Shown here piece by piece: positions 14,247-62,135 of a DNA stretch of 64,000 nt. A program made the position numbers and the translations under genes. The DNA lies in NCBI RefSeq assembly GCF_000167355.1, contig NZ_AAEW02000003.1:124001-188000 (forward strand), given 5' to 3'. Numbering within the stretch: position 1 is the stretch's first letter; each line of letters starts with the position of its first letter. The notes under the pieces were generated by a model that worked only from the letters and a program-made list of their open reading frames with translations, did not search any database and was not told the DNA's origin. Origin of the DNA: Desulfuromonas acetoxidans DSM 684. Its GTDB lineage: Bacteria > Desulfobacterota > Desulfuromonadia > Desulfuromonadales > Desulfuromonadaceae.

Positions 14247-17200
14247 AAAACTTTGTCACCCTGAATCTTAAACAAAAGGTGTTCATCAACGTCGTGTTCG
14301 TCATTCTCATGGTGAGCGGCGTGTACAGCCTGTTTAACACCCCGGTGGAAAACCTGCCGCCGGTAGCCATCGGCAAGGTAGTGATCACCACCATCCATTA
14401 CGGCGCTTCGGCACGTGATGTGGAGCAACTGGTCACCCGCGAGATTGAAGAAGCCATCGACGGACTGGAGAATGTCGAATACGTCCAGTCCACTTCGATG
14501 CGTAACGTGTCGTCGATCCTGATTAAATTCATTGACGACACCGACTATCGCCATCTGTATGACGAGCTGCGTCTGCGCGTACTCAATGTGCGCGAGCAGT
14601 TGCCGGATGCCGTGGATGATCCGATCTTCACCTATCTCGACAGCCAGGACTGGAAACCGGTGATCATCGCCAACTTGATCGGTGATCTGTCCAACACCAG
14701 CCTGACCCTGCTGGCCGAGGAGTTGAAAAGCGATCTGCGCAAGCTCGATGGCGTGCAGGAAGTGGCGCTCGAAGGGGATTATCATCAGGAGTTTCAGGTT
14801 CATATCGACCCGCAACGGCTGCGCGACACCGGCATCAGCTTTGCCGAAGTGGCCAAGGCGATTGCCGATGCCAACGTCAAGATCCCCAGCGGCCGCTACC
14901 GTCAGCAAGGCCACAACACCCTGCTCGACACGGGTCAGGTGTTTGACCGCCAACAACAGGTGCTCGATGTGGCCGTACGCCGTGATGGCGACGGCAACTT
15001 CATCCGCGTGCGCGATCTGGCGACCCTGGCCAGTCTGTCTCACCGTGAACCCGACCTGATCTCCACGGTCAATGGTCAGAGCACGGTCAAACTGAAAGTC
15101 AAAAAACAGGATGCGGCCAACGCCATCACCATCGCTGAGCGGGTCAAGCAGGAGGTGGAACGCTTCAACCAGCTTCATCAGCGCGACGGTGTCACCACGG
15201 TACTGACCAACGACTCCACCATCGAGATCGACGACTCGATCCGCACCCTCGGCGGCAACATGGTGCTCGGCATGATTCTGGTTACCTTGGTGCTGTGGAT
15301 CACCCTCGGCTTTCGTAATGCCATGCTCACGGCCATCGGCATCCCGTTTTCGTTTTTGGTCACCATCATCATCGTCAAGCTGACCGGTGAATCGATCAAC
15401 ACGATCAGTCTATTTTCGTTTGTGCTGGTGTCAGGGATTATTGTCGACGATGCGGTCATCATCATCGAAAACGTCTACCGCCACCTCTACATGGGCAAGA
15501 CGCGTCGCACCGCCATTGTCGATGGCGTCAGCGAGGTGTTCCTGCCGGTGATCAGCTCGGCCATGACCACCATCTGCGCGTTTGCTCCCATGCTGATCAT
15601 GACCGGCAGTACCGGCGACTTTTTCAGTGTCATTCCCAAAGCAGTCAGTTTTGCCTTGTTCGCCTCGCTGGTGGAATCGTTGTTTATCCTGCCGGTGCAT
15701 ATCCTTGATTACGGTCCACGCCAGATGAGTGCCAACCTGCATCCCGAAGGGGATTATCACCATCTGCAGGAAGGACCGTTTGCCCCATTGTGGAAGATCT
15801 ATCGCGGTTTGCTCAACACCCTGCTCAACCACAAATGGCTGACCATGGCCGGAATCACCACGGCATTTATGGTCACGATGGTGATGATGATCGTCTCCGT
15901 AACCGGCATCATGCCCCTTATCAAGGTGAAGTTTTATCAGGACAGCTACCTGCGCTACCATGTCACCGTGGATATGCCTACCGGCACCTCCGTGGAAGGC
16001 ACCGACGCGGTCATTCGTGATCTGTCGCGCTACCTGGTCAGCCTCGGCCCCGGCCAGACGTTGTCGACCAGCGGCAGCGCCGGGCTTAAAGAAGATCAGG
16101 ATTATCAAATTCACCGCGCCCAGCATTACGGTCAGGTGGTGGTAGAATTACCGCCACAAAGCGAGATGGACCTGCCGACGGGTAATGATCAGATCTCCAC
16201 CTATATCGACCAGATGTACGATCAGGTGGAAGCGTATGTCGACCAACATGCCGATCAATGGCCGGGACGACCGACCATTCAGGTATTTGGCGAAAGTACC
16301 GGCCCCCCGTCCGGCAAGGCAGTTAATATTCGCCTGTCGGCCATGGACATTGATCAGGCCCGCGCCGCTTCGGACGATGTTCTCGCCTATCTGCATAACG
16401 ACCCGGCCTTTGCCGATCTGATCAATCTGGAGGACAACCGCGCTTCGATCCAATCGGTGCTCAATTTCGAAGTACGGCGGGATCGCGCGTTGGAATACGG
16501 GCTGTCGAGCAGTGACGCCACCCGTCTGATTGCCGGCTCACTCAACGGCATGCAGGCCGGCAACTACCGCACCACCCGCGAAGAGATCGACCTAATGGTC
16601 AAACTGGCCCGTCAGGAAGATTCGGGCCGTGGTCTGCTCAACCCCGAGCAAGTGGCCACCATTCCCATTGTCGAGCACAGTGAGCAGCCGATTCTCATCG
16701 GTGACCTTGCCAACCTCGATTACCGTCAGGAGCCGGACGCCCGCACCCGCTACAACGGCAAACCAACCCTGACCATCACCGCCGACATCCGCACCGGCTC
16801 ACAACTATCGGCGAGTCGGGTCCAGGTGCTGGCCCAGCGTTATTTTGATTCTATCAATGATCGCTACCCCGGCGTCAGCATTGCTTTCGGTGGTGAATTT
16901 GAGAGCACTGCCCGTGCCTACACCTCATTGGCGGCAGCGTTTGTCATTGCCGTGCTGGCCATCTATCTGATTCTTGCCTCGCAGTTCAACGACTATATCC
17001 AGCCGATTATTATCCTGTCGGCCATCGCCTTTGCCTTCATCGGCGTGGTACTGGGGATGTTTTTTACCCGCTCAGTGTTCACCATCGGCAGCTTTATGGC
17101 AGTGATCGGTCTGGCCGGAGTGGCGGTCAACGACTCGTTGATTCTGATCGACTTCATGAACAAAGAGCGTGAACGGGGGCTGGGTCTGCGTGAAGCGGTG

Positions 17201-23393: not shown

Positions 23394-24023
23394 TTATTGG
23401 GGCTTTTGCACCACCATCCAGAGGCCGATGGCATCGCTGTGGCGCACCGAGTAGTCGCTGATCCCGGCCTTTTCCAGGGCGTTAGTCAAGCGTTTTCGAC
23501 TGGTATCACCCAAGTTGCGCCGAATGCGGTCGCGAAAAGTGTCCTCTTCACCACGTGCTTTAAATGCGCAAATGACCTGTTCAAGAAGCTGCTGATCGCC
23601 GAAACCACCGCCAATGTACATCCAGCCACCGGGTTTCAAAACCTGATAAAGATGCGAAAAACTTTGGTGAAGATCCTCCCAGAAGAACACGGAACCACGG
23701 CTGACAATCAGATCAACACTGTTGGGGGGCACCTCTATCCGTGCGACATCGCTGCATAGCGCGTGGCAGCGGTGTTGAAGCTGACGTGAGTCAATTGTGG
23801 TGGTAACCCGTTTCACCATATCCACAGAAGCATCTACAAAGCCTACGGCAAGATCCGTCTGCTGCAAAAGGGAAAAACCAAGATCACCGGGACCACAACC
23901 GACGTCAAGGCAGCACCCCTCTCGCACATTGGTCGTCTCAATAATTTGAGTCGCAATAACTGGATACACTGGGGCAAAAACGGTTTTGGCTAAATGATCA
24001 AATTTCTTGGCATCAATGGTCAT
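23394..24023 (-). CDS. Class I SAM-dependent methyltransferase at the end of the TonB/FecCD operon
   Basis: About 209 residues with motif I CCLDVGCGPGDLGFSL near residue 35, the acidic residue of VGFVDAS, and VDLIVSRGSVFFWED near residue 105. This resembles the UbiE/methyltransferase-11 type. ATG 24023 has GGAG six bases upstream and is preferred over 24035. It follows the regulator gene by about 150 bases on the same strand. It may modify the compound handled by the upstream transporter, or may be independent. No promoter or terminator was seen in the gap. Confidence 0.82.
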   Translation of the reverse strand: MTIDAKKFDHLAKTVFAPVYPVIATQIIETTNVREGCCLDVGCGPGDLGFSLLQQTDLAVGFVDASVDMVKRVTTTIDSRQLQHRCHALCSDVARIEVPPNSVDLIVSRGSVFFWEDLHQSFSHLYQVLKPGGWMYIGGGFGDQQLLEQVICAFKARGEEDTFRDRIRRNLGDTSRKRLTNALEKAGISDYSVRHSDAIGLWMVVQKPQ

Positions 24024-24174
24024 GGCATTCTCCATAGCTCCACAAAGGGGGCTGAAAAAAGGAACACAAATAAGGTGATAGGCATTTACAATTTACCTGC
24101 TTATGAGAACGCCAGTGACCACTGCAGGTGACAACAATGCCACCCTCCAACTGCTGCACCATTTCTCTGGTGAA

Positions 24175-25293
24175 TCAGACTTCGGCAATCACCTTGCCGG
24201 TGGCAGACGCCTCATAACCGGGCAACGCATCAATCTCTTTACGCAGTGCTGACGAATGCATGACATCAAGCACCACTTTGACCGTGGGGTGGTCAATCAA
24301 ATCTTCGGGAAACAGCAGATCACAACGCACCGCTGTTAAAGGCACAAAACCGAGGTCAAAAGCTTCAGCTATGGCACGTAAGCCCAAAGCGGCATCTGCC
24401 ACATTGCAGGCAATGCGGAAGGCCCCCTCGCGATGGGAATCGACCTCAGTAAGATAGCCGTTGATCATCGGACCGGCGATACCGGCTTTTTGCAGATGAT
24501 CATCCAGCAATACACGCAGGGCAGCCCCGCAATCACGATTGACAAAACGCACCATGGGCTGAACCAGATCAGCGACGCCGCGAATCCCTAACGGATTGCC
24601 CTTAGCTACCATCAACCCCTCTTCGAGCAGGGAAAAACCGATCACTTTAGTACGACGCTGTTGCAGATCTCGGCTGGCGGCAATCACGTTGGATTCCTTT
24701 TGATCCTGATTGTGAAAATGACTGCCGGCAATATGGGCAACCCCTTCCCCCAACCCGCGTAGCGAACGTCGGCTGGAAGCAAACCGGCAATAGACCTGTG
24801 CATCGCGCACCAATCGATTGACATGGTGACTGAGAATTTCAAAGGCCGGATCACAACCCATGAGAATAATATTGTGGTCAAGGGTCTGCGATGGGGAAAA
24901 AATCCGCGCATGCTTACCGTCTTCCGACAAGAGTCCATCGGCGGAACGCAAGCCGAACGGCATGGCGTCATGGCCACTGAGCGGCAAGCCCACCAGGCGG
25001 TCACGCACCCGGCTCAAGGCCAAGCGAGTCGAGGGCAGGCACGTCCCATTGACCAGATCGACCCCCTGCTGTTGTTCCGGGGTGTCATCGACAAACAGAT
25101 CCTCCACCCGGCAGCCGAACAACCGCGCCAGCCGGAGCGATATGCCGGTATTGGGCAGATAGCGGCCAGTTTCAATATCGTAAATGGCCTGGCGTTTGAT
25201 GCCGATGCGCTCAGCGAGTTCTTTTTGCGACCAGCCTTGTTTCTGGCGATAGTCACGCACCATGCATTTAATCGAATCATCTTGTCGGGTCAT
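24175..25293 (-). CDS. One-component regulator: XRE-type HTH fused to a periplasmic-binding-like (COG1910, molybdate-binding type) domain
   Basis: About 372 residues. Residues ~10-65 form an XRE helix-turn-helix: VRDYRQKQGWSQKELAERIG, then KRQAIYDIETGRYLPN. From ~95 the protein reads as a substrate-binding-like domain, with LMGCDPAFEIL, RFVNRDCGAALRVLLDD and IACNVADAALGLRAIAEAF. This matches COG1910, annotated as molybdate-binding-like. It is cytosolic, so it could sense an imported oxyanion or another small ligand. ATG 25293 has AAGGA upstream. It lies within the transport operon, which suggests feedback control of that operon. Confidence 0.85.
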   Translation of the reverse strand: MTRQDDSIKCMVRDYRQKQGWSQKELAERIGIKRQAIYDIETGRYLPNTGISLRLARLFGCRVEDLFVDDTPEQQQGVDLVNGTCLPSTRLALSRVRDRLVGLPLSGHDAMPFGLRSADGLLSEDGKHARIFSPSQTLDHNIILMGCDPAFEILSHHVNRLVRDAQVYCRFASSRRSLRGLGEGVAHIAGSHFHNQDQKESNVIAASRDLQQRRTKVIGFSLLEEGLMVAKGNPLGIRGVADLVQPMVRFVNRDCGAALRVLLDDHLQKAGIAGPMINGYLTEVDSHREGAFRIACNVADAALGLRAIAEAFDLGFVPLTAVRCDLLFPEDLIDHPTVKVVLDVMHSSALRKEIDALPGYEASATGKVIAEV

Positions 25294-25420
25294 AACGTTT
25301 TCCTTGTCGCAGATCACAGTAAATTGTGTTTACGCCAGACACATGTCTGGTACACACGTAACAACCCTCTATTTAGCACAGCGCATTCCCGCCCGTCAAA
25401 CAGACCGAGGTCGATAAACA

Positions 25421-27241
25421 TCACGCTAACAAATTCCCGGCTTCCTTTTGCTCATGCCAATACCAATCCGAGGAGGGTTTAGCAAATGAGCGATTGACTC
25501 TGTCGGCAATGAAATCGACACCATAGAAGCGGCGATAAAACTGCTGTGCTTCATCGAGCACATCAATCCGACAACGTTCCGGATGAAAAATACTCGCAAG
25601 ATGGAGCAAGCCGAGAATCCAGCGCGGACTGCCGAAATCCCAGCCCGCAGCAGGGTGCACAATGATACGTTGGTTGCGCACCGCTTCGACATCAATACCC
25701 AGCGCCGCGCACTCTGTCAGCACATCTTCTTTAGAACTCGACATAAACGCCGACATGACGATCACCTGCGGGTTCAACTCATTCAGTTTATCAACCGTGA
25801 GTCGCCGACCGGGGCGACCACCAACGGAAAGTTGCCGGTTCAGACTTTCGCCCCCTGCCAATTCAACCAGACGGTTTTCCAGACGTCCCGGCCCTATGGC
25901 AAACAGTGTCTTACCCATGGCATAGTAAACACGCGGTCGATCTGTGACACCCGTCATCGCCAGATCCAGATTGTCCAACCAACGTTCAAGGTAGTCAGCC
26001 AACTGCGTTGCGGCAACGGGACGCCCAGCCTGGCGGCCAAAAGAATGTAGCGCATTGAGATAACGACGCGGATCCTGAATATGTTGATGCAGCACCTGCA
26101 AACCATCGCCCTGCAGCAGACTTTCCCATGATCGTGCCACATCCTGCTGGCGTACCACTCCCATGGCGATCAACATGGCTTCAACCATTTCCAGAGCGCG
26201 GGTTAACGGGTAGCCGCCTTGAAAATCCCCCTCTTCAAAGATCGTTGCAGCCACCGTCCCTTTAACAGGCAACTCCACATCACACTGCGGGCACCGCCCC
26301 CCGGCCAAAAGAGCCGGACTTTGATCAAGGAGCAATTTTGCACCCATGGGTCCATAGAAATCCCGCCGAATCACTTCCCCACCACAATCACGACAATAGC
26401 TATTAAGATAAGTGCTGCCGGGAGAATTAAACAGGTAAACATGGTGAAGCCCTTGCTGTAATTCAAGGCAGAGCGCTTCGGCTTCGATAATCGACGGTTC
26501 TTCATCAATCGTCGCCCCTTCAAAGGGCAGAAATCGCATCACCTGTAAAGGAATCTGTCTATCAAGGCGGCTCAACCACTGGCCCAGGGCCATCACTTCA
26601 TTACGATTGGATCGCTGATAAACGCAAGACACTTCAATATGGATACCCGCATCATGCACCCGTTCAATGTTGCGGAGCACCGGAGCCAATCGCGCCCCTC
26701 CACAGGCCTGATACGAGGAGTCACTGAAGCCCTTCATGCCGAAATTGATAAAATCAAGATAAGGCACCAGCTTATCCAGCGCTGCGGCGCTGAAATAGCC
26801 GTTGGTCGAACAACCGACGCTCAGCCCGCACTGAGAAGCCAACTTGGCCACGGCGAGAAAACGCGGAAACGCCGCAAGTGGGTCATTCATCAAAAAAGCG
26901 ATCCCCTCGCAGTCGCTATCCAGCGCCCGATCAATCACCATCTGCGGAGTTAACACTTCAAGGGCACAACTGTCCCGGTTCATCTCTTTAACCAGCACCG
27001 TGGAGATACACCCGGGACAATCAAAATTACAACCGGTGGTGGTCAGTTGCAGAAACTTGCCACCGGGCTGAAAATGCAGCATAGGCATGGTTTCAATGGA
27101 GATGGGACAAGCAACCAGATACCGGTCGGGCTGTCGCTCAACCAGTTGACCATTGCTGAGTTCATAGAGCCCACAGCGGCCAGCCGTTCCATCCTGAAGA
27201 CGGCACTGATGTTCACAAATTGGACAAGTCATTTCAGTCAT
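25421..27241 (-). CDS. Radical SAM protein fused to a C-terminal half of a class III periplasmic-binding protein
   Basis: The 606-residue protein has four parts. An N-terminal Cys cluster (C6, C9, C13, C23) resembles a zinc finger. The radical SAM domain has the [4Fe-4S] motif CNFDCPGC (C71, C75, C78) and is closest to the PflA/AmmeMemoRadiSam group. A zinc ribbon (CRDCGG then CPQC) lies at ~285-330. From ~430 it carries the C-lobe of an iron-complex/BtuF-type binding protein: VYYAMGKTLF, ELAGGESL, LNPQVIVMSA and FYRRFYGVDF. No signal peptide, so it is cytosolic. It follows the second binding protein in the operon. Confidence 0.85.
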   Translation of the reverse strand: MTEMTCPICEHQCRLQDGTAGRCGLYELSNGQLVERQPDRYLVACPISIETMPMLHFQPGGKFLQLTTTGCNFDCPGCISTVLVKEMNRDSCALEVLTPQMVIDRALDSDCEGIAFLMNDPLAAFPRFLAVAKLASQCGLSVGCSTNGYFSAAALDKLVPYLDFINFGMKGFSDSSYQACGGARLAPVLRNIERVHDAGIHIEVSCVYQRSNRNEVMALGQWLSRLDRQIPLQVMRFLPFEGATIDEEPSIIEAEALCLELQQGLHHVYLFNSPGSTYLNSYCRDCGGEVIRRDFYGPMGAKLLLDQSPALLAGGRCPQCDVELPVKGTVAATIFEEGDFQGGYPLTRALEMVEAMLIAMGVVRQQDVARSWESLLQGDGLQVLHQHIQDPRRYLNALHSFGRQAGRPVAATQLADYLERWLDNLDLAMTGVTDRPRVYYAMGKTLFAIGPGRLENRLVELAGGESLNRQLSVGGRPGRRLTVDKLNELNPQVIVMSAFMSSSKEDVLTECAALGIDVEAVRNQRIIVHPAAGWDFGSPRWILGLLHLASIFHPERCRIDVLDEAQQFYRRFYGVDFIADRVNRSFAKPSSDWYWHEQKEAGNLLA

Positions 27242-27333: not shown

Positions 27334-28395
27334 TCAAGCCGTTTTTTTATGCTTCACCACCAAAGGATTGGCAAGAAGAGAGTCAATCTCTTCGCTGGTG
27401 AGTTCCATACGGTAAAACAGACGGTAAAAGCAACGCACCTCGTCGGCCATATCCCAGTTAAATTGCTGCGGATACAGCACCCCGCTCAACCAGATCACCC
27501 CGATCAGGCGGTTAATCGACGGGGGACGATCAAACCAGCTATACAACAGCCCCGGCGGTTCGTAACAGGTTCCCCTCTTCACAGCTTCAAGACACGACCA
27601 AAACGGATCGTCGGTCATGCGGGTCAACAGCCGATCTTCGGAATTTCCCTCATCGGACATCACCAGAATCACTTCTGGGTTCCACCGCAGCAGATCATCG
27701 GCACTAATCGGCGTCTGGCCGCAACCACGCAACTCATAGGTTTCAGCACAATTGATCCCGCCGGCCAGATCGATCACTTCGCCATGACGCGCTCCGCGAG
27801 GTTCGGTGTGCAAACCAGACGGCGTTTGCGCGTAATACACGGTATGGCGCGAAGACTTGGGGATGGTGGCTACTGTTCTTTGGATAATGTCGAGTTTTTT
27901 ATCAAAATAATCGGCCAGCATCTCAGCGCGATCTTCGACACCAATCACCAGGCCGACACGGCGAATCACTTCGGCACTACGCTCCAGAGCACCATCAAAA
28001 ATCAGCACCGGGATATCCAGTTCCTTTTGCAGGTTCTCAGCCATTTGAACCTCAGGTTCGTCAATCTTCGACAGCGTCATCGACAGGATCACATCCGGCT
28101 GTGCCTGGCGAATGGCTTCGGTATTAAGGGTTTGTTTACCGCCACCGAACAGGGCACCAAGTACGCCGAGAACCGGCAGGTCAAGATACGATTGCGGCGC
28201 GACCTGCAACTCCAAAGGCGATGGCGGAAAGTTGTGTCCGGCAATCTTTTCCGGCGCCAGGGCATACATCAACGCAGTGATCATCGGGTTGTAACCAAAA
28301 ACTTTTTCTACGCGCTCCTTAACAATGACTTTGCGTCCGGCCATATCAGTGACCAGCCGGGTTCCAACTGGTGGCGTTTTTTCAATATCACTCAT
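27334..28395 (-). CDS. Class III substrate-binding protein without signal peptide (apparently cytosolic)
   Basis: About 353 residues with a full two-lobe fold. The N-lobe has VFGYNPMITALMYALAPEKI and PDVILSMT. The C-lobe has VYYAQTPSGLHTEP, DLAGGINCAE, NPEVILVMSD and SWFDRPPSINRLIG. The family is normally periplasmic, but the start MSDIEKTPP (ATG 28395, GGAG 7 bases upstream) has no hydrophobic leader or lipobox. The alternative GTG/ATG starts upstream do not create one either. It may receive the ligand in the cytosol, for example from the transporter, and hand it to the radical SAM fusion. This is inference. Confidence 0.82.
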   Translation of the reverse strand: MSDIEKTPPVGTRLVTDMAGRKVIVKERVEKVFGYNPMITALMYALAPEKIAGHNFPPSPLELQVAPQSYLDLPVLGVLGALFGGGKQTLNTEAIRQAQPDVILSMTLSKIDEPEVQMAENLQKELDIPVLIFDGALERSAEVIRRVGLVIGVEDRAEMLADYFDKKLDIIQRTVATIPKSSRHTVYYAQTPSGLHTEPRGARHGEVIDLAGGINCAETYELRGCGQTPISADDLLRWNPEVILVMSDEGNSEDRLLTRMTDDPFWSCLEAVKRGTCYEPPGLLYSWFDRPPSINRLIGVIWLSGVLYPQQFNWDMADEVRCFYRLFYRMELTSEEIDSLLANPLVVKHKKTA

Positions 28396-28503
28396 GGATT
28401 CACTCCTTGTTAAAGTCAGCATCTGTTATGCGGACGGCAATATTTTCTTGGCTCCCTTCTCCCGCCGGAAGAAGAATGCTCTGTTAACCAGGTACCGCGA
28501 CCA

Positions 28504-29268
28504 TTAAATTTGCGGCATACAACAGCGATAGCCGTGACGGCTCTCGGCAATTTCTACCGCCACACCGTACAAACGCTGCACGTTATCAGGCGTCAGCACG
28601 CGATCTACCTGATCAAAAGCAAGCATTTCTCCATGGTCGAGCATGGCCACCCGATCCGAACAGGCCAACGCATGATCCGGGTAATGGGTGGTTTTTAAAA
28701 ACGTGGTGCCCTGTTTGGCAAAGTCACGCAAAAAGCGCAGCAACTTGATTTGATTGCCGTAGTCGAGTCCATTGACCGGCTCATCGAGAAACAGGATCTC
28801 CGCCTGCTGACACAACGCCCGAGCGATCAGAGCCAACTGCTGCTGGCCGCCACTGATCCGTGAAAAAGGCATGGCCGACAACGCATCTGCACCAACCTGC
28901 TCCAACGCTTCGTGAGCCAGTCGGTAATCATGCTTGCTGTAGTTTGAAAACAGACCACCATGGGCGAGACGGCCCATCAACACCACATCCAATACCGTGT
29001 AGGAAAACGGCATGTGGTGGATCTGCGGCACATAAGCGATCTTGCGGGCCAGTTCCTGACGGCGGTAATCGCCAATCGGCTTGCCGAACAACCTCACTTC
29101 CCCCTGACCGCGCAGCAGACCGAGCAGGATTTTCAGCAAGGTGCTTTTGCCGCTGCCATTGGGCCCCAATAAAGAGACCACTTCGCCACCGGCAAGATCG
29201 AAATCAACCCCCTGCAATACCGGCTTGCGACCGTAGGAAAATCGGATATTACGCGCCTCAATCACCAT
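28504..29268 (-). CDS. ABC transporter ATP-binding protein (FecE/BtuD/FepC type)
   Basis: The 254-residue protein has Walker A GPNGSGKST, Q-loop YVPQIHH, signature ISGGQQQLALIARAL and Walker B ILFLDEP. This is the iron-complex/vitamin B12 importer ATPase class. Its start overlaps the permease stop (ATTAATG region), so the pair is co-translated. It powers import by the FecCD-type permease encoded upstream. Confidence 0.93.
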   Translation of the reverse strand: MVIEARNIRFSYGRKPVLQGVDFDLAGGEVVSLLGPNGSGKSTLLKILLGLLRGQGEVRLFGKPIGDYRRQELARKIAYVPQIHHMPFSYTVLDVVLMGRLAHGGLFSNYSKHDYRLAHEALEQVGADALSAMPFSRISGGQQQLALIARALCQQAEILFLDEPVNGLDYGNQIKLLRFLRDFAKQGTTFLKTTHYPDHALACSDRVAMLDHGEMLAFDQVDRVLTPDNVQRLYGVAVEIAESRHGYRCCMPQI

Positions 29269-30362
29269 TAATGAAATCCCTCCCGTGCATGTTTCAACAC
29301 GATAATAAAGATGGGAATGCCAACCAGTGACGTCAGGATGCCGATAGGGATCTCATGGGCAAACAAGGTGCGCGACAAATTATCCGTCACCAGCAGGAAC
29401 AGCGCGCCGATCAGCGCGCTGGCCGGCAGCACTTTGCGGTTATCGGCACCGAGCAGCAGCCGCGCCATGTGCGGAATAATCAGACCAATCCAGCCTATGA
29501 CACCAGCCATCACCACGCACAGGGCACTGACCAGGGTGGCCAAAGTGATGGCAATCACCTTGATGCGCCGCACGTTGAGACCAAGAGACTGCGCCTCTTC
29601 ATCGCCAAGGCTCAGGGCGTTGAGATATTTAGCCATCAGCGTCAGAACCAGGACGGAAAACAGCATCGGCCCGGCCACCAGCACAATGGTGTCCTTATCG
29701 CTGAACGACAGACTGCCCATCAACCAGTAGACAATAGCCGGCAGAGTATCGTAGGGATCGGCACTGTACTTAAGCACCGACAACAGTGCGGTAAACAATG
29801 AACTGCTGATCACCCCGCCGAGGATAAGGATGATGACACTGCGACTATTGCGGTAGATCAAAGAGATCATCACCGCTGTGGCCACAGCCGCCGCACCAAA
29901 CACAAATGCCGCCACCTGCACGCCCAGCCACGGCAATTGCAGCACCATGCCTAAAGCAGCACCAAACGATGAACCGGCCAGCACACCGAGAATGCCCGGC
30001 GACACCAGTGGATTAACAAACATGGCCTGAAAGGTACTTCCGGCCACGGACAGTGAAGCACCAATCACCACAGCGGCAATAATGCGCGGCAGGCGGATCT
30101 CAAATATCACACTGTACAAGGTGGCGAACTGCTGGCGCGCCACATCAGACTGGCCGGTGATCACCAGACGAGCAAACTCAGTATAATCATCGTATGATAC
30201 CGGGTATTTGCCCAACAGCAGTGAGGCTTGCATGGCCACCAGCAACACCAGAACCAAGCCGACAAACACCAACTGTTGTCGATTGAACGACCAGCTCAGT
30301 CGCCGACAGGTACTGTTCCGCTTCCACAGCGGACGCCATTTCTCTGAACAGGAAGTGTCCAT
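29268..30362 (-). CDS. FecCD-family ABC transporter permease
   Basis: The 364-residue protein has about ten membrane helices. The family motif RLPRIIAAVVIGASLSVAGS lies near residue 98, GILGVLAGSSFGAALG follows, and GWIGLIIPHMARLLLG lies near 280. These are the hallmarks of FecCD/BtuC permeases, which import siderophores, cobalamin, haem or, in MolB, molybdate. ATG overlaps the TonB stop. One gene presumably forms a homodimeric channel. Confidence 0.93.
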   Translation of the reverse strand: MDTSCSEKWRPLWKRNSTCRRLSWSFNRQQLVFVGLVLVLLVAMQASLLLGKYPVSYDDYTEFARLVITGQSDVARQQFATLYSVIFEIRLPRIIAAVVIGASLSVAGSTFQAMFVNPLVSPGILGVLAGSSFGAALGMVLQLPWLGVQVAAFVFGAAAVATAVMISLIYRNSRSVIILILGGVISSSLFTALLSVLKYSADPYDTLPAIVYWLMGSLSFSDKDTIVLVAGPMLFSVLVLTLMAKYLNALSLGDEEAQSLGLNVRRIKVIAITLATLVSALCVVMAGVIGWIGLIIPHMARLLLGADNRKVLPASALIGALFLLVTDNLSRTLFAHEIPIGILTSLVGIPIFIIVLKHAREGFH

Positions 30363-31258
30363 CAGCGCAACTCAAAAATAATCGGCGCGGTCACCGTCAG
30401 CGCACCTTGGGGCGGCGCAGCAAACGGCGCGGCATGACGAATGGTATGGATCGCAGCCCGATCGAGCATGCGCCTGCCGCAACTGGTCAACACCGTCACG
30501 TTGTTGTCGGTAAGAGAGCCATCCGCCGCAATCTCGAATTGAAATTTGCCCTTCCCTTCGATATGCCATTTACGCGCTTTAAGCGGGTAATGGAGATGTG
30601 CCTGAACCTGCTGTTGGACCAACATGACGTAGCGCTCCAGCTCCGTTGCCATTCGCTCGCCCTGCATGGCCATGCCCGGCACGGGATCAACCACCTGTTC
30701 GGCGGAGGCTGAAACCATTGACGGCCCCTGAACCTGTTCCGCGACATTGGCGACCGCGGCGGCAGCGGCGACCGGCGGCTCAGGCAGGACTTCAGGCTTC
30801 ACAGCCACCTCTTCCTTACGTGGTGCAGGCGGCGGTTCTGGTTCACGCTGCTTTTCAATCGTCGTTTTGATCACTGGAACCGTCGGTTCCACCACTTTCG
30901 GTCTCTCGACAGGTTTGGGCGGGGCAACCACCGGAGGTGGCGTGACAGGCTCGGTGACGCGCACAACAGGTTGTGCGGCAACCGGAGCAGCCGCCACCGC
31001 AGACGGAGCAAAACTGACCAGTGTAATAGGCTGCGCCTCCACCGACTGCGGTGTCTGCGCCGGCACGGCCAGCAAGCTATACAGGCCAACATGCACCACC
31101 GCCGACAGGGTCAAAAATGTGCTCAACCCGGTGCTTTTTACCACTCCCAGCCCAACGGAACCACTGGAGCACAATGGCACCATGGCAACCAAAATGGCCT
31201 TCACGGCCAGCAACCAGGAATACGGCATCACCGCAGAAGATTTAAAGGTTCGGTTCAT
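30362..31258 (-). CDS. tonB: TonB energy transducer
   Basis: About 298 residues. Hydrophobic segments lie at residues ~12-30 and 40-63. A long Pro/Val/Glu-rich spacer (EPVTPPPVVAPPKPVERPK) spans ~75-190. The C-terminal TonB domain contains HYPLKARKWHIEGKGKFQF (quoted in part). The start at 31258 overlaps the ExbD stop by 17 bases; a start at 31294 would overlap further. TonB links the proton-driven ExbBD motor to the outer-membrane receptors, here the product of 33129-35219 and probably also that of 10091-12070. Confidence 0.9.
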   Translation of the reverse strand: MNRTFKSSAVMPYSWLLAVKAILVAMVPLCSSGSVGLGVVKSTGLSTFLTLSAVVHVGLYSLLAVPAQTPQSVEAQPITLVSFAPSAVAAAPVAAQPVVRVTEPVTPPPVVAPPKPVERPKVVEPTVPVIKTTIEKQREPEPPPAPRKEEVAVKPEVLPEPPVAAAAAVANVAEQVQGPSMVSASAEQVVDPVPGMAMQGERMATELERYVMLVQQQVQAHLHYPLKARKWHIEGKGKFQFEIAADGSLTDNNVTVLTSCGRRMLDRAAIHTIRHAAPFAAPPQGALTVTAPIIFELR

Positions 31259-31652
31259 CGTCCTGACTCTCCAGAGCAAAGGTAAAAAAACCATGGCGTT
31301 TGCACAGATCGATCACTTCAACCACCAGACCGTAGCGGGCTCCGGCATCGCTGCGCACCAGCACCGGCCATTCACTATTCGCTTGCTCAAGGTGCGCCAC
31401 CAGTTCGCGACGCTTCACCTGTTTATCGTCCACATACAGCAGTCCTCGCCGGTCGATGCTGATGGTAACGTGGGGATCAGTCTCAGACAGGGAGGCGGCA
31501 GTCTGCGCCTTGGGCAAATTCAGTTCCAGCGCCTGCTGCGTAATAAAACTAGCCGTAGCCATAAACACGATCAGCAGCACCAGCACGATGTCAACGAACG
31601 GTGTCATGTTGATCTGCGAGATCTCCTGGTCCGTCGTGAAATCGTTATTCAT
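31242..31652 (-). CDS. exbD: ExbD/TolR family biopolymer transport protein
   Basis: The 136-residue protein has one N-terminal helix with the conserved aspartate in MTPFVDIVLVLLIVFM. A short periplasmic domain follows, with 'VTISIDRRGLLYVDDKQV'. It forms the proton channel with ExbB. It overlaps exbB by 8 bases and tonB by 17. Confidence 0.92.
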   Translation of the reverse strand: MNNDFTTDQEISQINMTPFVDIVLVLLIVFMATASFITQQALELNLPKAQTAASLSETDPHVTISIDRRGLLYVDDKQVKRRELVAHLEQANSEWPVLVRSDAGARYGLVVEVIDLCKRHGFFTFALESQDDEPNL

Positions 31653-32085
31653 TGTTCTGCCTCAACAACAGCCAGGTTTGCAGGGTCTTTGAAAAGGCGT
31701 TGTAAGCGATCACCGCCGGGATGGCCACCAACAACCCCATGGCCGTGGCCACCAGAGCTTCGGAGATCCCACCCATGACCACCTTGATCCCAGAGCCTTG
31801 CTGCAGATGCAGGTCGTGGAATGCCTTGATCACGCCGAGTACCGTACCAAACAGCCCGATAAACGGCGCGTTGTTGCCGAGGGTAGCAAGTATCGTCAAC
31901 CGCTTCTGACCGAACAGCAGCAGATCACGCTTGCTCAATTGACCATAACAACGCCGCAAGTGAACAAACGCATACAGCCGTTCGAGAATGACGCCCAATG
32001 TCACCACACTAAGTGCCAGCAAAATATACAGAACAAAATCACCGCCACCGAGAAACATCCGCAACAGGGAATCACTGACCTTCAT
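31645..32085 (-). CDS. exbB: ExbB/TolQ/MotA-family proton channel protein
   Basis: The 146-residue protein has three helices and the family core LTILATLGNNAPFIGLFGTVLGVIKAF (quoted in part: NNAPFIGLFGTVLGVIKAF). It is shorter than E. coli ExbB, as in many Deltaproteobacteria. ATG 32085 overlaps the stop of the binding-protein gene; GGAGG lies about 6 bases before it. A GTG codon three bases upstream is an alternative. Confidence 0.92.
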   Translation of the reverse strand: MKVSDSLLRMFLGGGDFVLYILLALSVVTLGVILERLYAFVHLRRCYGQLSKRDLLLFGQKRLTILATLGNNAPFIGLFGTVLGVIKAFHDLHLQQGSGIKVVMGGISEALVATAMGLLVAIPAVIAYNAFSKTLQTWLLLRQNNE

Positions 32086-33125
32086 CACGCCCCTCCTTTT
32101 CCTATCGCACGGGTCGCCGCCGGAAACATCATGCGTGATAAGTCGTCTTCGTCCACCCGCACTCCGAAAAACAGCTCAAAAAACGCCCGCGCCTTCGCTT
32201 TGACATCGTAGGGATAGCGCTGTGGATAAAACTGGGCCGCCAACCAATGCCCACCGATCAGCCGCATGAATGACGGTGGACGGTCGAGCCAGTTGAACGG
32301 GGTTTTTGGCACCAGAGCCACGCGGCCCTGCCGCACCGCTGTCAATTGTTGCCACAGAGGATCGTCAAACAGCTCGCGATAGCACAGCGGATTTTGCACA
32401 ACAATCACTTCGGGATCATAGGCCAAAAGCTGCTCCATATTAATGCTCTGCAACCCCGTCACCGTGGTCTGACGCCCCTGGTGGACATTAATACCTCCGG
32501 CATAACGCAGCGGCTCCGCGTGAAAAGAACCGGCACATTCCGTTTGCAAGCCGTCACGCCCTTCGGCGTAATACACCCGCACCCGTTCGTCGGGGGGGAT
32601 GGTGGCGACAAAGCGTTGCAAATCATCAATCTGCTGTTCGGCCCAAACAGCCAGCGCCTCGCCACGTTTGGCACGACCAATAACTGCAGAGAGTTGACGA
32701 AATACCTGCGGGTAGTTGGCCGTGTCATCAATATTCACCGCCAGCGCCTTGTATCCGATTCGTCCCAGATCGCCATCCACTTTGTCCTGCAACAACGGCG
32801 TATCCCAACTGACAATCAGATCCGGCTTTTGCCGGAGAATCTCTTCGAGATTGGGGTGACGATTGCCGTGCCAACCACCGAGAACCGGCAAGTGGCGGAA
32901 CCATTCACGCAAAAACCGATCATCCGCGTTGTTGGATGGATTGCGCAGCGGAGCATTAACAGCAATCAGCCCGTCTGCACCAAGCACATAGAGGAGATGG
33001 GTAATGGGCGGCGCCGTACCGTAAATGCGCTGTGGCTGGGCATCCCTGTGCCCCCCCTGGGAAGCGGGGGCCACATTGGGAAACATCACAAACACACAAC
33101 AGATGAGCAGGAGCAGGCCACGCAT
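32085..33125 (-). CDS. Class III periplasmic substrate-binding protein
   Basis: The 346-residue protein has a signal peptide, LLLLICCVFVMFPNVAPA. The binding-protein lobes follow, with RIYGTAPPITHLLYVLG, KPDLIVSWDTPLL, VYYAEGRDGLQTECAG, RYAGGINV, DPEVIVVQNPL, FNWLDRPPSFMRLIG and a tail FFELFFGVRV. It belongs to the family that feeds FecCD permeases; members bind Fe, Ni, Co or oxyanion complexes. It lies 3 bases from the receptor stop and overlaps exbB. It shares clear C-lobe motifs with two other proteins of this operon. Confidence 0.9.
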   Translation of the reverse strand: MRGLLLLICCVFVMFPNVAPASQGGHRDAQPQRIYGTAPPITHLLYVLGADGLIAVNAPLRNPSNNADDRFLREWFRHLPVLGGWHGNRHPNLEEILRQKPDLIVSWDTPLLQDKVDGDLGRIGYKALAVNIDDTANYPQVFRQLSAVIGRAKRGEALAVWAEQQIDDLQRFVATIPPDERVRVYYAEGRDGLQTECAGSFHAEPLRYAGGINVHQGRQTTVTGLQSINMEQLLAYDPEVIVVQNPLCYRELFDDPLWQQLTAVRQGRVALVPKTPFNWLDRPPSFMRLIGGHWLAAQFYPQRYPYDVKAKARAFFELFFGVRVDEDDLSRMMFPAATRAIGKGGA

Positions 33126-33128
33126 GGC

Positions 33129-35219
33129 TTAAAATCCGACCTGTACCGACAGCACACCGTTAATACCGGCTTCATCGGGCAGATACCACGAAGTCGCCGA
33201 CACTTTATCGAGATGCTGACGATAATCGCGGTCAAGAACGTTGTTCAGTTCAAACGCCACCACCGGCGCAGTCATCCAGCCGATATCGGCAAAGGCATAG
33301 CTGACAGCCAGATTGGTAATGGCATAGCCCGGTGTTTCCACCTCGCCATTGACTGTGGAGATGCGGTCCTGCTCATCAACCATCACCTCTTCGATGAACC
33401 AGCTCAGACCGGTTTTACGCTGCTGACCGATGGTCAGGGTCAGCTTTTGCGGAGCAATGTAGGCCAAAGGCTGGTCATCCATTTCATTTTTGCCATAGGT
33501 ATAGAGATAGGCGGCTTCAACAAACAGATCAGCGCCGAAATCGTAACCAAGCAACGCCTCTGCACCGTAGACTGTGGCGTCATCGAGATTGACATAGCGC
33601 TTGATGGGCAGACCGGCAGTGGTCTGGTAACCGGTTTGAACCAGTTCGATATAGTCGGTGTAGTCTTGGTAGTACAAGGCACTGGTGTAGTAAAGGCCAC
33701 CGATGCGACCGTCAAAACCGACATCAACACCCCAGACACTTTCGTTGTCCAGATCCTGATTAGGGACCATGGAGCCATTGTTGGGGTTGTTGCCGTAGGA
33801 CTCATTAAAGTACGGCGTGCGACTGGCATTGGAGAGTTTCACATAAGGGACAAAGGCGGAACAGAACTCATAGCCGGCCGTGGCACTGACCGACAGCAGA
33901 TGATCACGTTCATCCGTATCCTTCTGTTGCACCTGATCAAGCAGTTCCGACGGCACCAGGCCGGACAGGGCTGTTGAATTGACGTTGGAATGGACTTTGC
34001 GACGGACAAATTCATACCCGGCCGCAACATTGAAAAACGCCTTGCCGTAGACCATATCGTCGGCAACGTTAACCATGGTGGAACTGATTTCGCCATCGGT
34101 AATGCCGAAAGCACTCACCCAGTCGCTCCAACTCTGCGTGGCACCGTTAAACATACGCACGCCGTTGGTCACTTCCATCTTGGTATATTTGCCGGAAAAC
34201 GACAGCAGGTGGTTGCCGAGCTCTTTTTGCGCCGAGAGCTTGCCACCACGGGTTTCGCTATCGCGGAACAGCTCACGCACTTCGGGAATAGCCGCTTCCT
34301 TTTTCATGTCCATATCATAGTGGAGATCGCTGCCAAACAGTTGCAGATGAACGTTTTGCAGGCCTCCGAGTTCCGCGTCTTTGTAGCCGATGAACAGGGT
34401 CTCGCCGTCATCGTTGGGGCGGTCGGTATAAAACCAGACGCCGTTATTCTGGTAACGGGAAAAAGGATCCTCCGAATCAGCTTTATCCTTCATGTAACGG
34501 ACATAGACGTGACTGTCGTCAGTGATCTTCACGGCCATACTGACATTGTAGTTAGAGGTCTCGTATTGGGAGTGTTCAACGTCATCGCCCTCACCGTCTT
34601 CATAGTCATCGTAATCGGACAAGCCGCCACTCACCGCGATATTGAAGCGATCATTGTAAGCGCGTCCTCCCAAAGCGGCTGAATACCCAGAGGTGGAAAA
34701 CATCGATGTTTTGGCTTTAAAAAAACCACTGGTGACAAACGCCGCACTGTCGGCGAATTCGGGATCACTGAATTTGACCACAACCGCGCCGCTCATAGCG
34801 CCCATACCCAATGTTGCTCCACTGGGGCCGCGATAAACTTCCACGGTTTCCACGTCAATCAGGTTGAACAGATTAGTCGAGTCACTATGACCACTGTTAA
34901 GGCGCATCCCTTCCAGATAAACCGGCACACCCTTGGTGCCGCGCCCGCGAATGTAGGGTTCGGAGCTATACTCGCCGGATTTCTGGAATTCAACAAAGAA
35001 TTCCTTGTCGAGCGCTTCGGTAAGAGACACCGGCTGCACCGGTTGTTCCGTGACGACAACAACCTTCTTGGGCTCTGCCAGCGTCTCGGTCACAGGAACC
35101 GACTCGGTGATCTTGACGGGGTCAAGAACAACGCTGTCATCGGCCAAGGCGCTGCCGACAGTACTCAGGACCATCATTGCTATGGTCAGGGAAATAAAGA
35201 ACGTGGATAAACGTTTCAT
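33129..35219 (-). CDS. TonB-dependent outer-membrane receptor (metal or metal-complex uptake)
   Basis: The 696-residue protein has a signal peptide ending at SALADD. A Pro/Val-rich stretch precedes the plug, which has YIRGRGTKGVPVYLEG, VETVEVYRGPSGATLGMGAMSGAV and VVKFSDP. The barrel ends in VLSVQVGF, with the C-terminal Phe needed for assembly. AGGAGG lies 8 bases before the ATG. It heads the operon with its own ExbBD-TonB and FecCD transporter. The ligand is not evident. Confidence 0.93.
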   Translation of the reverse strand: MKRLSTFFISLTIAMMVLSTVGSALADDSVVLDPVKITESVPVTETLAEPKKVVVVTEQPVQPVSLTEALDKEFFVEFQKSGEYSSEPYIRGRGTKGVPVYLEGMRLNSGHSDSTNLFNLIDVETVEVYRGPSGATLGMGAMSGAVVVKFSDPEFADSAAFVTSGFFKAKTSMFSTSGYSAALGGRAYNDRFNIAVSGGLSDYDDYEDGEGDDVEHSQYETSNYNVSMAVKITDDSHVYVRYMKDKADSEDPFSRYQNNGVWFYTDRPNDDGETLFIGYKDAELGGLQNVHLQLFGSDLHYDMDMKKEAAIPEVRELFRDSETRGGKLSAQKELGNHLLSFSGKYTKMEVTNGVRMFNGATQSWSDWVSAFGITDGEISSTMVNVADDMVYGKAFFNVAAGYEFVRRKVHSNVNSTALSGLVPSELLDQVQQKDTDERDHLLSVSATAGYEFCSAFVPYVKLSNASRTPYFNESYGNNPNNGSMVPNQDLDNESVWGVDVGFDGRIGGLYYTSALYYQDYTDYIELVQTGYQTTAGLPIKRYVNLDDATVYGAEALLGYDFGADLFVEAAYLYTYGKNEMDDQPLAYIAPQKLTLTIGQQRKTGLSWFIEEVMVDEQDRISTVNGEVETPGYAITNLAVSYAFADIGWMTAPVVAFELNNVLDRDYRQHLDKVSATSWYLPDEAGINGVLSVQVGF

Positions 35220-58786: not shown

Positions 58787-59620
58787 TCAGAGAAATACCG
58801 GGCAACGCACAATGTTGGAATTGTCGTTTTCGACCGTGCAATGATAGTGAACTGCCGGCTTGCCAAAGGCCATGGCAGCACCAATCAGATGGTCCTCGGG
58901 AATGCCGAGTTTTTTTCGCACACCCGACAACAATTCGTCAATGGCGCAACGAGCCAAACCATCCCAGACCGTCCCAACTCCCAGGGTCTGAGCAAACAGC
59001 TCAAAATAGGAGAGCGCAATCACACAATCGGCAACCGGCGAAGAAATATTTCGAGGGGCCGAAGCAACGAGAAGATGAGGGGCCCCACGAAACAGCACAT
59101 CGATATGTTTTTTTTGCCAGAGGAAAACAAAGTTGGCAAACACCTTGCGCTTGTCAGGAAGTTTCCCGTCATTGGCCAGTTTTTCGACAACATCATAGGT
59201 GTGCTGACGAAACTTATCCATCATGTGTTTATCGTCAATAACACTGAGTTGCACCTGTCGAACATTACCTCCCGTCGGAGCCTGACAGGCAACATCAAGC
59301 AGTCTCTGCATCAGTTCGGGGTCGAGGTTCTCATCGACATAGTGACGCACCGAGCGACGCCCCTTGATAAGAATTTCCATCTGGTCAGGGTCAGGGAATG
59401 CCCCTTGTATCAGCGTACTCTGGCTTGGACTCTTTCCGAGAATCGAGACTGCTCCGCTCGGACAGATCGCCAGGCAATGCTGACACTTGCGACATCCAAT
59501 TTCTTTCTCTTTTGGAATCCGAGGCCAACCGCTATCCATATCAATGATATGAGCCACGCAATCTTTTGCACAAAGACCGCATTGGGTACATTTTTCTTTG
59601 TCGACGCTAAATTCAGGCAT
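58787..59620 (-). CDS. Nitroreductase-family protein with an N-terminal 2x[4Fe-4S] ferredoxin domain
   Basis: About 277 residues. The ferredoxin part has CTQCGLCAKDC and CRKCQHCLAICPSG (residues ~10-60). The nitroreductase part has RRSVRHYVDENLDPELM and QAPTGGNVRQVQL near 120. FMN binding is likely. Such proteins reduce flavin-bound or nitro substrates with ferredoxin electrons; the true substrate is unknown. ATG 59620 is preferred, with GAGGG five bases upstream; 59623 is an alternative. It is the last gene of the Mo-linked operon. Confidence 0.85.
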   Translation of the reverse strand: MPEFSVDKEKCTQCGLCAKDCVAHIIDMDSGWPRIPKEKEIGCRKCQHCLAICPSGAVSILGKSPSQSTLIQGAFPDPDQMEILIKGRRSVRHYVDENLDPELMQRLLDVACQAPTGGNVRQVQLSVIDDKHMMDKFRQHTYDVVEKLANDGKLPDKRKVFANFVFLWQKKHIDVLFRGAPHLLVASAPRNISSPVADCVIALSYFELFAQTLGVGTVWDGLARCAIDELLSGVRKKLGIPEDHLIGAAMAFGKPAVHYHCTVENDNSNIVRCPVFL

Positions 59621-59726
59621 CATGTCCCTCATCCTTGCCCCGTTTCCGTTTGCAAACAGTACGCTTGTTGAATTGATGTAAAACTGACCGCTCTTGAAGA
59701 CGCGATGCGGACACATCCTGGACAAA

Positions 59727-60497
59727 TCAGCTCAAATCGCAGGAGCAACCCATCTCTACGGCCATCTCCTGCCAGTGGTCCATGCGTCGCTGTAACTCCG
59801 CTTTACTTTGTTCATCGGTGCGAAAAGCAATCGTTGTCCAGTCCATCTCGTCCAACGCGGTCACCACTTCATCGATTTTATTAAAGGGGATGGAGATCAT
59901 GCGCAGACCCGCCTTAAAAATATCACGTCGCTTGATTCCATGGTAAAAGCCGGTTGTAATGTGATTCACCTTGCCGGAGATCAGGGGATACGCGTACATC
60001 CAACTGCAACTGACCACCGGTGTCGATTTCGACTCCCAGAGATCACCGGAAAGATAGCTGGTCGCACGCATGACAATATCAGCTTGTGGAATGTCGGCAA
60101 AAAGCACGATAAGATCCGGGTCAAAGTCACAACTGGCAACCGGGGCAAAAACGACGTAATTGATCGCGCCAGGCACCAGAACCGGCAATTGTTGATACAA
60201 TTTACGACAACCGGAAAGGCTTTTATACACACCGAAATCCAACCCGGCCTGGCCGCAGGCCGTTACAGGTGGTTTGGGAACCATCCCCAAAGCGACTTTC
60301 CCGTAGCAGGCATCGTTCTCTTTCGAAATATAAAACGTTTTGCCGGTGTCCTGTGCTTCTTTGACATACTGACAAAAGGCCAACGTCTTGTCGCAGTGTT
60401 CAACCGCTTGTGGCTTGACCGGCAGATACTGCACAGCGACAGCGGGAATTTCCAGCTTGAGTCGCGCAAACATCTGTTTCGCTTTGTCACTTAACAT
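59727..60497 (-). CDS. DUF169 family protein
   Basis: About 256 residues. The start at 60497 has GGAGG six bases upstream. The sequence has VAVQYLPVKP, LAFCQYVKEAQ, CYGKVALGM, CGQAGLDFGVYKS and SVVSC-type cysteines (VVSCSWMYAYPL), then GIKRRDIFKAGLRM. This pattern is typical of DUF169, found near anaerobic metal and redox genes. Conserved Cys may bind a metal. Function is unknown. It lies between ModC and the nitroreductase gene. Confidence 0.85.
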   Translation of the reverse strand: MLSDKAKQMFARLKLEIPAVAVQYLPVKPQAVEHCDKTLAFCQYVKEAQDTGKTFYISKENDACYGKVALGMVPKPPVTACGQAGLDFGVYKSLSGCRKLYQQLPVLVPGAINYVVFAPVASCDFDPDLIVLFADIPQADIVMRATSYLSGDLWESKSTPVVSCSWMYAYPLISGKVNHITTGFYHGIKRRDIFKAGLRMISIPFNKIDEVVTALDEMDWTTIAFRTDEQSKAELQRRMDHWQEMAVEMGCSCDLS

Positions 60498-60625
60498 AGA
60501 ACCTCCACGTGGGACCCGACGTAAAAAAGAGTCCGTTACGATGTGAATATAACCTGGCTTCGTTGAGTCATGCTTAGGGCGGAAACTGGATAGATGAACG
60601 TGCCATCCTCTCAACCAATCGTCAA

Positions 60626-61291
60626 TCAGACAAAAGCTTTTATGTTGACGGTTTTTTCTATGGCTCCGCGGCGCAAAAAAGAAACCTTGTGGCCCAAAAC
60701 CGCCGCTTCGGTCATATTGTGGGTCACCAGCAACATGGTCACACCGGTTTTTCTCTGCAACTCCTTGAGCTCAAGTTGCAATTGTGAGCGGCTTTCCGGG
60801 TCCACATGGCTTAAAGGTTCGTCGAGCAGTAATGTTCCGGGTTCATTGGCCAGTGCCCGTGCCAGGGCAATACGCTGTTTCTGGCCGCCACTGAGCATCG
60901 CCGGGAATTTATGCTGTTCTTCCAGCAAGCCGACCAGCGCCAGGTAGTGCTGCGCTTTATTGAAGGCAGCCAGCCTGTTCACACCGCTGGCCTTGAGACC
61001 ATACTCAACATTCTCCAATGCGTTCAAGTGAGGAAACAGCGCATAATCCTGAAACACAAAGCCCACATCGCGCTTTTGCGGCTGTTTTTTTGTGACACAG
61101 ATATCGTTGAGATAAATTTCGCCGGAATCCGGTTTCTGCAGCCCGGCAATAATCGAAAGTAAGGTACTTTTCCCTTCACCGCTGGGTCCGACCAGCACAT
61201 GGAAGGTTCCGGCTTCAACATGTAACGACAGGTCACGAAACAGTTCCTGGGAACCGAATTTTTTACTGATCGCCTGAAGTTCAATAGCCAT
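60626..61291 (-). CDS. modC: Molybdate/tungstate ABC transporter ATP-binding protein (ModC-like)
   Basis: The 221-residue protein has Walker A GPSGEGKSTL, a Q-loop FVFQDYALFPHL, signature LSGGQKQRIALARAL and Walker B LLLDEPLSH. It lacks the long C-terminal MOP domain of E. coli ModC, as in many anaerobes, so oxyanion gating must be different. It overlaps modB by 11 bases. Confidence 0.87.
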   Translation of the reverse strand: MAIELQAISKKFGSQELFRDLSLHVEAGTFHVLVGPSGEGKSTLLSIIAGLQKPDSGEIYLNDICVTKKQPQKRDVGFVFQDYALFPHLNALENVEYGLKASGVNRLAAFNKAQHYLALVGLLEEQHKFPAMLSGGQKQRIALARALANEPGTLLLDEPLSHVDPESRSQLQLELKELQRKTGVTMLLVTHNMTEAAVLGHKVSFLRRGAIEKTVNIKAFV

Positions 61292-62135
61292 GCTGACGTC
61301 CAGCTTGAAGCTTTAAGACAAACAGCAGCGTAAAAGAGAAAAGAATCAGCAGCAGTGCTGTTGAGATCGACTGGCCTAGCTCACCACTCATAGCATCCAT
61401 GTAGATGGAGATGGTCATGGTTTCTGTTCTTCCCGGAATACTGCCGGCCACCATGGCCGTGGCGCCGAACTCGCCCAAAGCGCGTGCCCAGCTCATTGCC
61501 AACCCGGCACAGCCCCCTTTACGAATCAGCGGCAGAATCACGCGCCGAAAGGTATAGAAGTCCGAGGCGTTGAGCGTTGCCGAGGCTGCCAGCAGATTAC
61601 TGGGTATCGAGGCGATACTTTCCCGAGCCGTCTTGATAAAGAATGGCGCCGCCACAAAAAACTGCGCCAGAACGATGCCGGTTGGGGTAAACAACAGCTC
61701 AATGCCTGCGTTATGAAGAAGATGGCCAAACAGGTTGTTGCCATTGAACAGCAACAACAGGCACAGTCCGGTCACCAGCGGCGGCATAATAATCGGCAAA
61801 TCAAGAATCGCTTCGAGCAGCGCTTTGCCTTTAAAGTTTTTCAGGGCCAGAACATAGGCCACAGGCAAACCAAACACCAGGGTAAGAAGAACAACACCGC
61901 ACGACGTCTTCAGACTCAACACAATGGTGTTGAGTCCCTGCGCCGAACAAAGATACGTCCAAAGATCGCCCCACGACGCTGCGCCGAGAAGAGCCAGCAA
62001 CACCAGGCCGATCATGCTGAAAAATACAGCCGTCATCAAAGCCATCAACAGGTTAAAACGGAGCAATCGTGCTATCGGGTTAACGGTCGCCTGACTCGGT
62101 AGAGCAGCAACCTGTTCAGTGGAAATGTTGTACAT
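61281..62135 (-). CDS. modB: Molybdate/tungstate ABC transporter permease (ModB-like)
   Basis: The 284-residue protein has six helices. The binding-protein-dependent transport motif is visible at AMSWARALGEFGATAMVAG, near residue 215. Residues ILDLPIIMPPLVTGLCLLLL (quoted in part) fit ModB/CysT. It lies 22 bases from the DUF364 gene and overlaps modC. Confidence 0.88.
   Translation of the reverse strand: MYNISTEQVAALPSQATVNPIARLLRFNLLMALMTAVFFSMIGLVLLALLGAASWGDLWTYLCSAQGLNTIVLSLKTSCGVVLLTLVFGLPVAYVLALKNFKGKALLEAILDLPIIMPPLVTGLCLLLLFNGNNLFGHLLHNAGIELLFTPTGIVLAQFFVAAPFFIKTARESIASIPSNLLAASATLNASDFYTFRRVILPLIRKGGCAGLAMSWARALGEFGATAMVAGSIPGRTETMTISIYMDAMSGELGQSISTALLLILFSFTLLFVLKLQAGRQHGY

Follow-up and report, generated by a model that had tools for sequence, protein, structure and literature searches.

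A protein of 606 residues, encoded in the window (the whole 64,000-nucleotide stretch of Desulfuromonas acetoxidans DSM 684 DNA which was analysed), is a cytosolic radical SAM enzyme whose tail contains a class III binding-protein C-lobe, the N-lobe being absent. We consider it about an even bet (a probability of roughly 0.5) that the radical SAM part and its re-tooled C-lobe process an imported tungsten- or molybdenum-ligand complex within a TonB-dependent uptake system. The architecture of the fusion, its single origin, its conservation, its uptake-operon context and the Moco-type RNAs heading several of the orthologous operons were established computationally. The genes of the operon and the parts of the fusion, with the evidence for each, are as follows:

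33129–35219, minus strand: TonB-dependent outer-membrane receptor (Pfam, NCBIfam)
32085–33125, minus strand: periplasmic class III binding protein with signal peptide (Pfam, leader comparison)
31645–32088, minus strand: ExbB (Pfam, NCBIfam)
31242–31652, minus strand: ExbD (position, sequence, homologues at related loci)
30362–31294, minus strand: TonB (Pfam, NCBIfam)
29268–30362, minus strand: FecCD-type permease (Pfam, NCBIfam)
28504–29268, minus strand: ABC transporter ATPase of the FecE/BtuD type (Pfam, NCBIfam)
27334–28422, minus strand: complete class III binding protein without signal peptide, genus-specific (Pfam, sequence comparison)
25421–27241, minus strand (27241→25421): radical SAM/binding-protein C-lobe fusion, 606 aa (ORF, Pfam, NCBIfam, PDB search, profiles, models)
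residues 1–330 of the fusion: AmmeMemoRadiSam-like enzyme domain (NCBIfam, alignment)
26108–26251, minus strand, residues 331–378: helical segment where an N-lobe would be expected, with no detectable binding-protein similarity (hhalign, AlphaFold2)
25472–26107, minus strand, residues 379–590: interlobe helix and class III binding-protein C-lobe (hhalign, Foldseek, VIA-align)
within 25472–26107, minus strand: interlobe helix at residues 379–432 and C-lobe at residues 433–590 (hhalign)
24175–25317, minus strand: XRE helix-turn-helix regulator with PBP_like domain [PF12727] (Pfam, NCBIfam)
23394–24035, minus strand: class I SAM-dependent methyltransferase, at most loci its orthologues abut the fusion gene or overlap with it (neighbourhood comparison)

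The operon thus runs from the receptor through the periplasmic binding protein, ExbB, ExbD, TonB and the FecCD permease to the ATPase, and continues with the second binding protein, the fusion, the XRE/PBP_like regulator and the methyltransferase. From receptor to ATPase the genes overlap or lie a few bases apart; from the second binding protein onward they are spaced by 81–139 bases. The start of the second binding protein is probably at 28395, not 28422, because a ribosome-binding site is present at 28395. The receptor resembles haem receptors [TIGR01785], with a score below the cut-off; the window copy is intact, whereas that of a close relative (L039, 11950–14039, minus strand) consists of two overlapping ORFs, owing to a frameshift or a sequencing error. 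The PBP_like domain of the regulator is also found fused to MoeA, and this regulator is predicted to be a sensor of the molybdate/tungstate type.

That the N-terminal part is a radical SAM enzyme with a CX3CX2C cluster and a ribbon, as proposed in the preliminary description, is borne out. Pfam reports Radical_SAM at residues 67–207 (Peripla_BP_2 was not reported for the fusion), and the cluster cysteines C71, C75 and C78 are invariant across 16 aligned fusion proteins. Further cysteines lie near the N-terminus (C6, C9, C13 and C23); in the C-terminal ribbon of the enzyme domain C283 and C286 are invariant, and C317 and C320 are common, not universal, among fusions. An export signal is absent, the N-terminus reading MTEMTCPICE with no hydrophobic stretch ahead of the enzyme domain. 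Nearly the whole of TIGR04337 (the AmmeMemoRadiSam radical SAM model) aligns with residues 4–325, at a score of 132.2 bits which is below the curated cut-off of 220. Like AmrS [TIGR04337], the fusion possesses N-terminal cysteines, a CX3CX2C barrel and a C-terminal ribbon. Unlike AmrS, it belongs to a separate clade, bears an extra C-terminal part of 270 residues and occupies a different gene neighbourhood.

Searches of PDB sequences with this C-terminal part returned significant matches to class III binding proteins only: 4hn9 [residues 417–575, 5e-10], 4pag [381–579, 5e-7] and 4ovk. TIGR04281, likewise a class III binding-protein model, aligns with residues 399–557 [4e-6]. The preliminary description had placed a C-lobe from about residue 430 and had seen no N-lobe. 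When the profile of 16 fusion proteins was compared with that of 31 binding proteins from the same loci (hhalign), residues 432–590 matched the C-lobe with 99.8% probability (E about 1e-29), which confirms both the lobe and the binding-protein relation of the region ~430–606. Its boundary has to be moved, however, as homology starts near residue 379 and includes the interlobe helix (residues 378–432, 95–96%). For residues 330–378 the probability was 0.2%, equal to that of shuffled columns, in agreement with the claim that no N-lobe is present.

The predicted structures of the single chain tell the same story. Two AlphaFold2 models, of low to middling confidence (pLDDT 52 and 60) because their alignments comprised four rows, both form solely helices at 328–429, without the complete N-lobe that might have been sought in ~330–430, and an alpha/beta C-lobe starting at 437. 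An N-lobe concealed in 330–430 was rejected from the profile comparison together with these all-helical, low-pLDDT models. Searched with Foldseek, the model retrieved 4ovk, 4pag and 4hn9 as best matches, each with half of the target covered; the barrel found viperin, PFL-activase, NifB and MoaA next. With VIA-align the C-terminal model gave Z 17.2 (4ovk) and Z 16.0 (4pag), and Z 14.3 for the molybdate binder MolA [3psa], a likeness which is common to iron and haem binders. The same program lays helices 346–378 of the fusion onto N-lobe helices of binding proteins, in a region where pLDDT is only about 40. The N-lobe sheet is missing, and the helical piece of about 50 residues may perhaps partly stand in for the N-lobe.

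In possessing an interlobe helix and a C-lobe the fusion resembles class III binding proteins [PF01497; 4pag, 4ovk, 4hn9, 3psa]. Unlike them it lacks both N-lobe and signal peptide, sits behind an enzyme and has had its cleft residues replaced. Residues of the C-lobe fold are retained in the 16 fusions (V438, A462-G463-G464, P491, A520-V521, L543-G544 and F568-Y569). Related binding proteins carry a conserved His (24 of 36) and a conserved Arg (23 of 36) at two positions which, from the class III fold, should line the cleft; at these positions all 16 fusions have E455 and W541. N468, P477-G478 and C511 are both invariant and specific to the fusions. The C-lobe is under strong constraint, different from that of the binding proteins. 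With invariant Glu455 and Trp541 where binding proteins commonly have His and Arg, the half-lobe is a re-tooled one. Simple binding of an identical ligand in an unchanged manner is not to be expected, and, as the usual His and Arg are absent, the lobe may even have no affinity for the complex that is transported. The earlier suggestion, that the lobe offers the radical site a metal complex which it has bound, may still be correct. A recent duplication of the binding protein of the same operon is ruled out, the C-lobe forming in the tree a branch separate from all sampled binding proteins.

One could assume instead that the C-lobe is a docking or structural domain which binds no small ligand and sites the enzyme on the ABC transporter, the cytosolic binding protein or the methyltransferase. 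Replacement of the cleft residues with retention of the core fold residues would agree with this, as would the fact that a lone C-lobe is half of a binding site; a set of invariant residues, the polar E455, N468 and C511 together with P477-G478, nevertheless suggests a specific function, and the cytosolic binding protein is missing from most fusion loci. We regard a pure docking role as unlikely.

Full-length fusions were found by profile search in 11 of 194 class-level genomes; two more fusion-bearing genomes were found among 198 at the phylum level and one extra in a third class-level search, giving 17 fusion loci in 14 genomes of Desulfobacterota, some with two copies. The bacteria which have this enzyme are reducers of sulfur and metals. 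A match in Nitrospirae (L007) is not a member of the family. The viral-contig scan revealed no fusion, and on plasmids only the separate halves were found. A tree computed from the radical SAM part, with 16 fusions, 11 stand-alone relatives and 25 AmrS proteins, has the fusions in a single clade (100/99), the stand-alone relatives in a second and the AmrS proteins in a third; fusions and their stand-alone sister clade are set apart from the 25 AmrS rows with support of 100/99. The fusion is an ancient, conserved family of single origin. Its patchy distribution suggests horizontal transfer or loss. The same patchiness might be read as the mark of a fusion that arose by accident or has decayed and that serves no coherent purpose. 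This view can hardly be entertained: it is refuted by 17 loci in 14 genomes, a well-supported single origin, invariant residues in all domains and a conserved operon.

Beside the stand-alone radical SAM gene there is, in 14 of 14 loci (L062, L064, L067–L074, L084–L086 and L058), a conserved protein of about 380 residues with the motifs HWSxRxxGLHxPS and ECFARNxxNQG; the one member tested had no Pfam match. The idea that this always-adjacent protein is a split C-lobe was rejected, as it is unrelated to binding proteins (0.5–1%).

It had been suggested that the half-lobe might pair with the product of 27334–28395, apparently a cytosolic binding protein inside an uptake operon. As a rule this does not hold. 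The signal-peptide-less protein has both lobes, and was seen in the window and three fetched orthologues, all of the same genus. Beyond these four genus-level loci covering the 27334–28395 gene it is absent from the fusion loci, whose remaining binding proteins carry a hydrophobic leader; it therefore does not qualify as a partner of the half-lobe in general. The constant partner of the fusion is instead the methyltransferase, its gene being present in 13 of the 16 other fusion loci. In the eight loci measured the gap between the two genes was always −28 to +3 bases, and the two are often translationally coupled; an adjacent methyltransferase is missing from three of the four loci of subclade B. 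The second fusion copy of one genome (L038) has the methyltransferase alone alongside, with no transport genes within 18 kb.

The neighbourhoods, covering about 19 kb, of 16 fusion loci were compared with those of 20 amrS control loci from related genomes. Class III binding proteins (13/16), TonB receptors (11/16), FecCD (10/16), methyltransferases (13/16) and at least one molybdenum marker (ModA, ModB, ModD, MoeA or a PBP_like regulator; 9/16) all occur at fusion loci and at none of the 20 controls, although these counts are not independent events since loci within a genus are related. In one genome (L058) modA/modB-like genes adjoin the fusion cluster. Stand-alone relatives lie in similar clusters, one of them beside modD, modABC-like genes, nifH and nifD.

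As in the RF01055 and RF01713 regulons, several orthologous fusion operons are preceded by these RNAs. RF01055 (the Moco riboswitch), known to control cofactor-related genes (PMC2408646), heads the operon in L060, L061 and L063 with 63–74 bits against a gathering score of 36 (Rfam), a line of evidence independent of the gene counts. RF01713 (Moco-II) heads the L037 operon; another copy precedes L056 (G166) at a short distance, on the same contig. In all, 5 of 17 fusion loci have a Moco-type RNA at the operon head and a sixth match, just below the cut-off, is the Moco-II one of 34.5 bits (cut-off 35) at the same operon position in the L057 genome (G093). No such RNA was found in 14 windows around stand-alone radical SAM genes or in seven control windows. 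Nor was one found before the operon of the window, either at or below the gathering threshold, so that its own molybdenum link derives from the PBP_like regulator and the orthologues.

All three fusion-operon copies of RF01055 lack the P3 stem, and RNAs without P3 have been associated with the tungsten cofactor (Regulski et al. 2008, PMC2408646). The loss favours tungsten only mildly, as it is possibly the norm in these genomes, where all RF01055 copies measure 114–129 nt. In Pelobacter carbinolicus TonB-receptor genes which may transport metals have been noted near molybdopterin-responsive riboswitches (Aklujkar et al. 2012, PMC3543383). The operon concerns the uptake of a metal, probably tungsten or molybdenum. 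Class III binding proteins and FecCD permeases are common to many metals; uptake of iron, haem or B12 was rejected, the cofactor RNAs, the PBP_like regulators and the mod/moe neighbours indicating molybdenum or tungsten instead.

Several other genes of this kind were encountered. The window contains a second molybdenum/tungsten region (58787–63654, minus strand) with ABC genes, a ModA-like binding protein (62914–63654), a DUF364 "heavy-metal chelation" protein (62157–62966, minus strand) and, beyond the window, moeA. On contig C6 of the D. acetoxidans genome (L087, 9353–14619) a TonB receptor, a class III binding protein, an XRE/PBP_like regulator and a ModA-like gene are adjacent and constitute a second molybdenum/tungsten-linked outer-membrane uptake locus. 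DUF364/DUF4213 "heavy-metal chelation" and FmdE-domain proteins recur in L062, L067, L068, L070, L058 and L073. A MoeA-PBP_like fusion (L064, 12148–14106, minus strand) lies near a stand-alone radical SAM gene and beside a second moeA, and near the riboswitch-controlled fusion operon of L060 a second radical SAM protein with a BATS domain (15640–16695, minus strand) adjoins moeA.

The presence of MoeA, ModA and cofactor RNAs at fusion loci might indicate a maturase of tungsto- or molybdoenzymes, or a cofactor-modifying enzyme, in which the C-lobe binds and delivers tungstate or molybdate. The fusion does show weak similarity to TIGR04317, the radical SAM maturase of tungsten enzymes [4e-8], but its 32.6 bits do not approach the cut-off of 380, and it is transport genes that lie beside the fusion genes, with no tungstoenzyme identified there. 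Such a role seems to us quite improbable.

Metallophore loci commonly cluster receptor, importer and biosynthetic genes. One of the two chief rivals of the processing model, beside a purely structural C-lobe, is that the radical SAM enzyme and the methyltransferase make a secreted and re-imported small molecule, an anaerobic binder of tungsten or molybdenum, with the C-lobe recognising the product. Methyltransferases recur, a second one (MT2) heading the operon at some loci; genes for FmdE and for DUF364 "heavy-metal chelation" proteins do so too. Neither an exporter nor an NRPS or a precursor peptide could be recognised among the genes of the window's operon, most of which overlap or lie close together, and we find this route of biosynthesis rather unlikely.

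That orthologous operons are under tungsten/molybdenum-cofactor RNA switches suggests that the fusion acts on a complex of tungsten or molybdenum once this has been imported. On this processing model the receptor, the binding protein and the FecCD-type permease would import the complex, and the C-lobe would dock either that complex or just its ligand above the radical SAM barrel; barrel and helical segment together would make up the side of the pocket that belongs to the missing N-lobe. The enzyme and the coupled methyltransferase might then modify or break the ligand, and the metal would be released to cofactor synthesis. The substrate, the reaction and the step of modification or unloading we infer. 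More tentatively, the captured half binding protein could be the substrate clamp of a new class of radical SAM enzymes which, under control of a tungsten-cofactor riboswitch, unload or build a TonB-imported carrier of tungsten or molybdenum. Such a system, if real, would amount to a metallophore pathway for tungsten or molybdenum in anaerobes.

There is a precedent for a class III binding-protein domain that works intracellularly on a metal complex taken up from outside: Btr [NF049932], an AraC regulator controlling bacillibactin uptake. Btr combines a full binding-protein domain with a DNA-binding domain; the fusion combines a half domain with an enzyme. The kind of each part is already known, as are TonB systems near molybdenum riboswitches. 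In the literature searched, which covered few subscription papers, we found no description of a radical SAM/half-binding-protein fusion or its operon, nor of the replaced cleft residues, the tie to the methyltransferase or the control of the fusion by cofactor RNAs.

In this family a radical enzyme, half a binding protein and a methyltransferase are linked to TonB uptake operons that molybdenum/tungsten-cofactor RNAs control, and a lobe of a binding protein has found new use as a domain of an enzyme. It bears on the outer-membrane uptake of scarce tungsten and molybdenum by anaerobes, for which there may be dedicated organic carriers, and named genes are now available with which such an uptake pathway can be tested.
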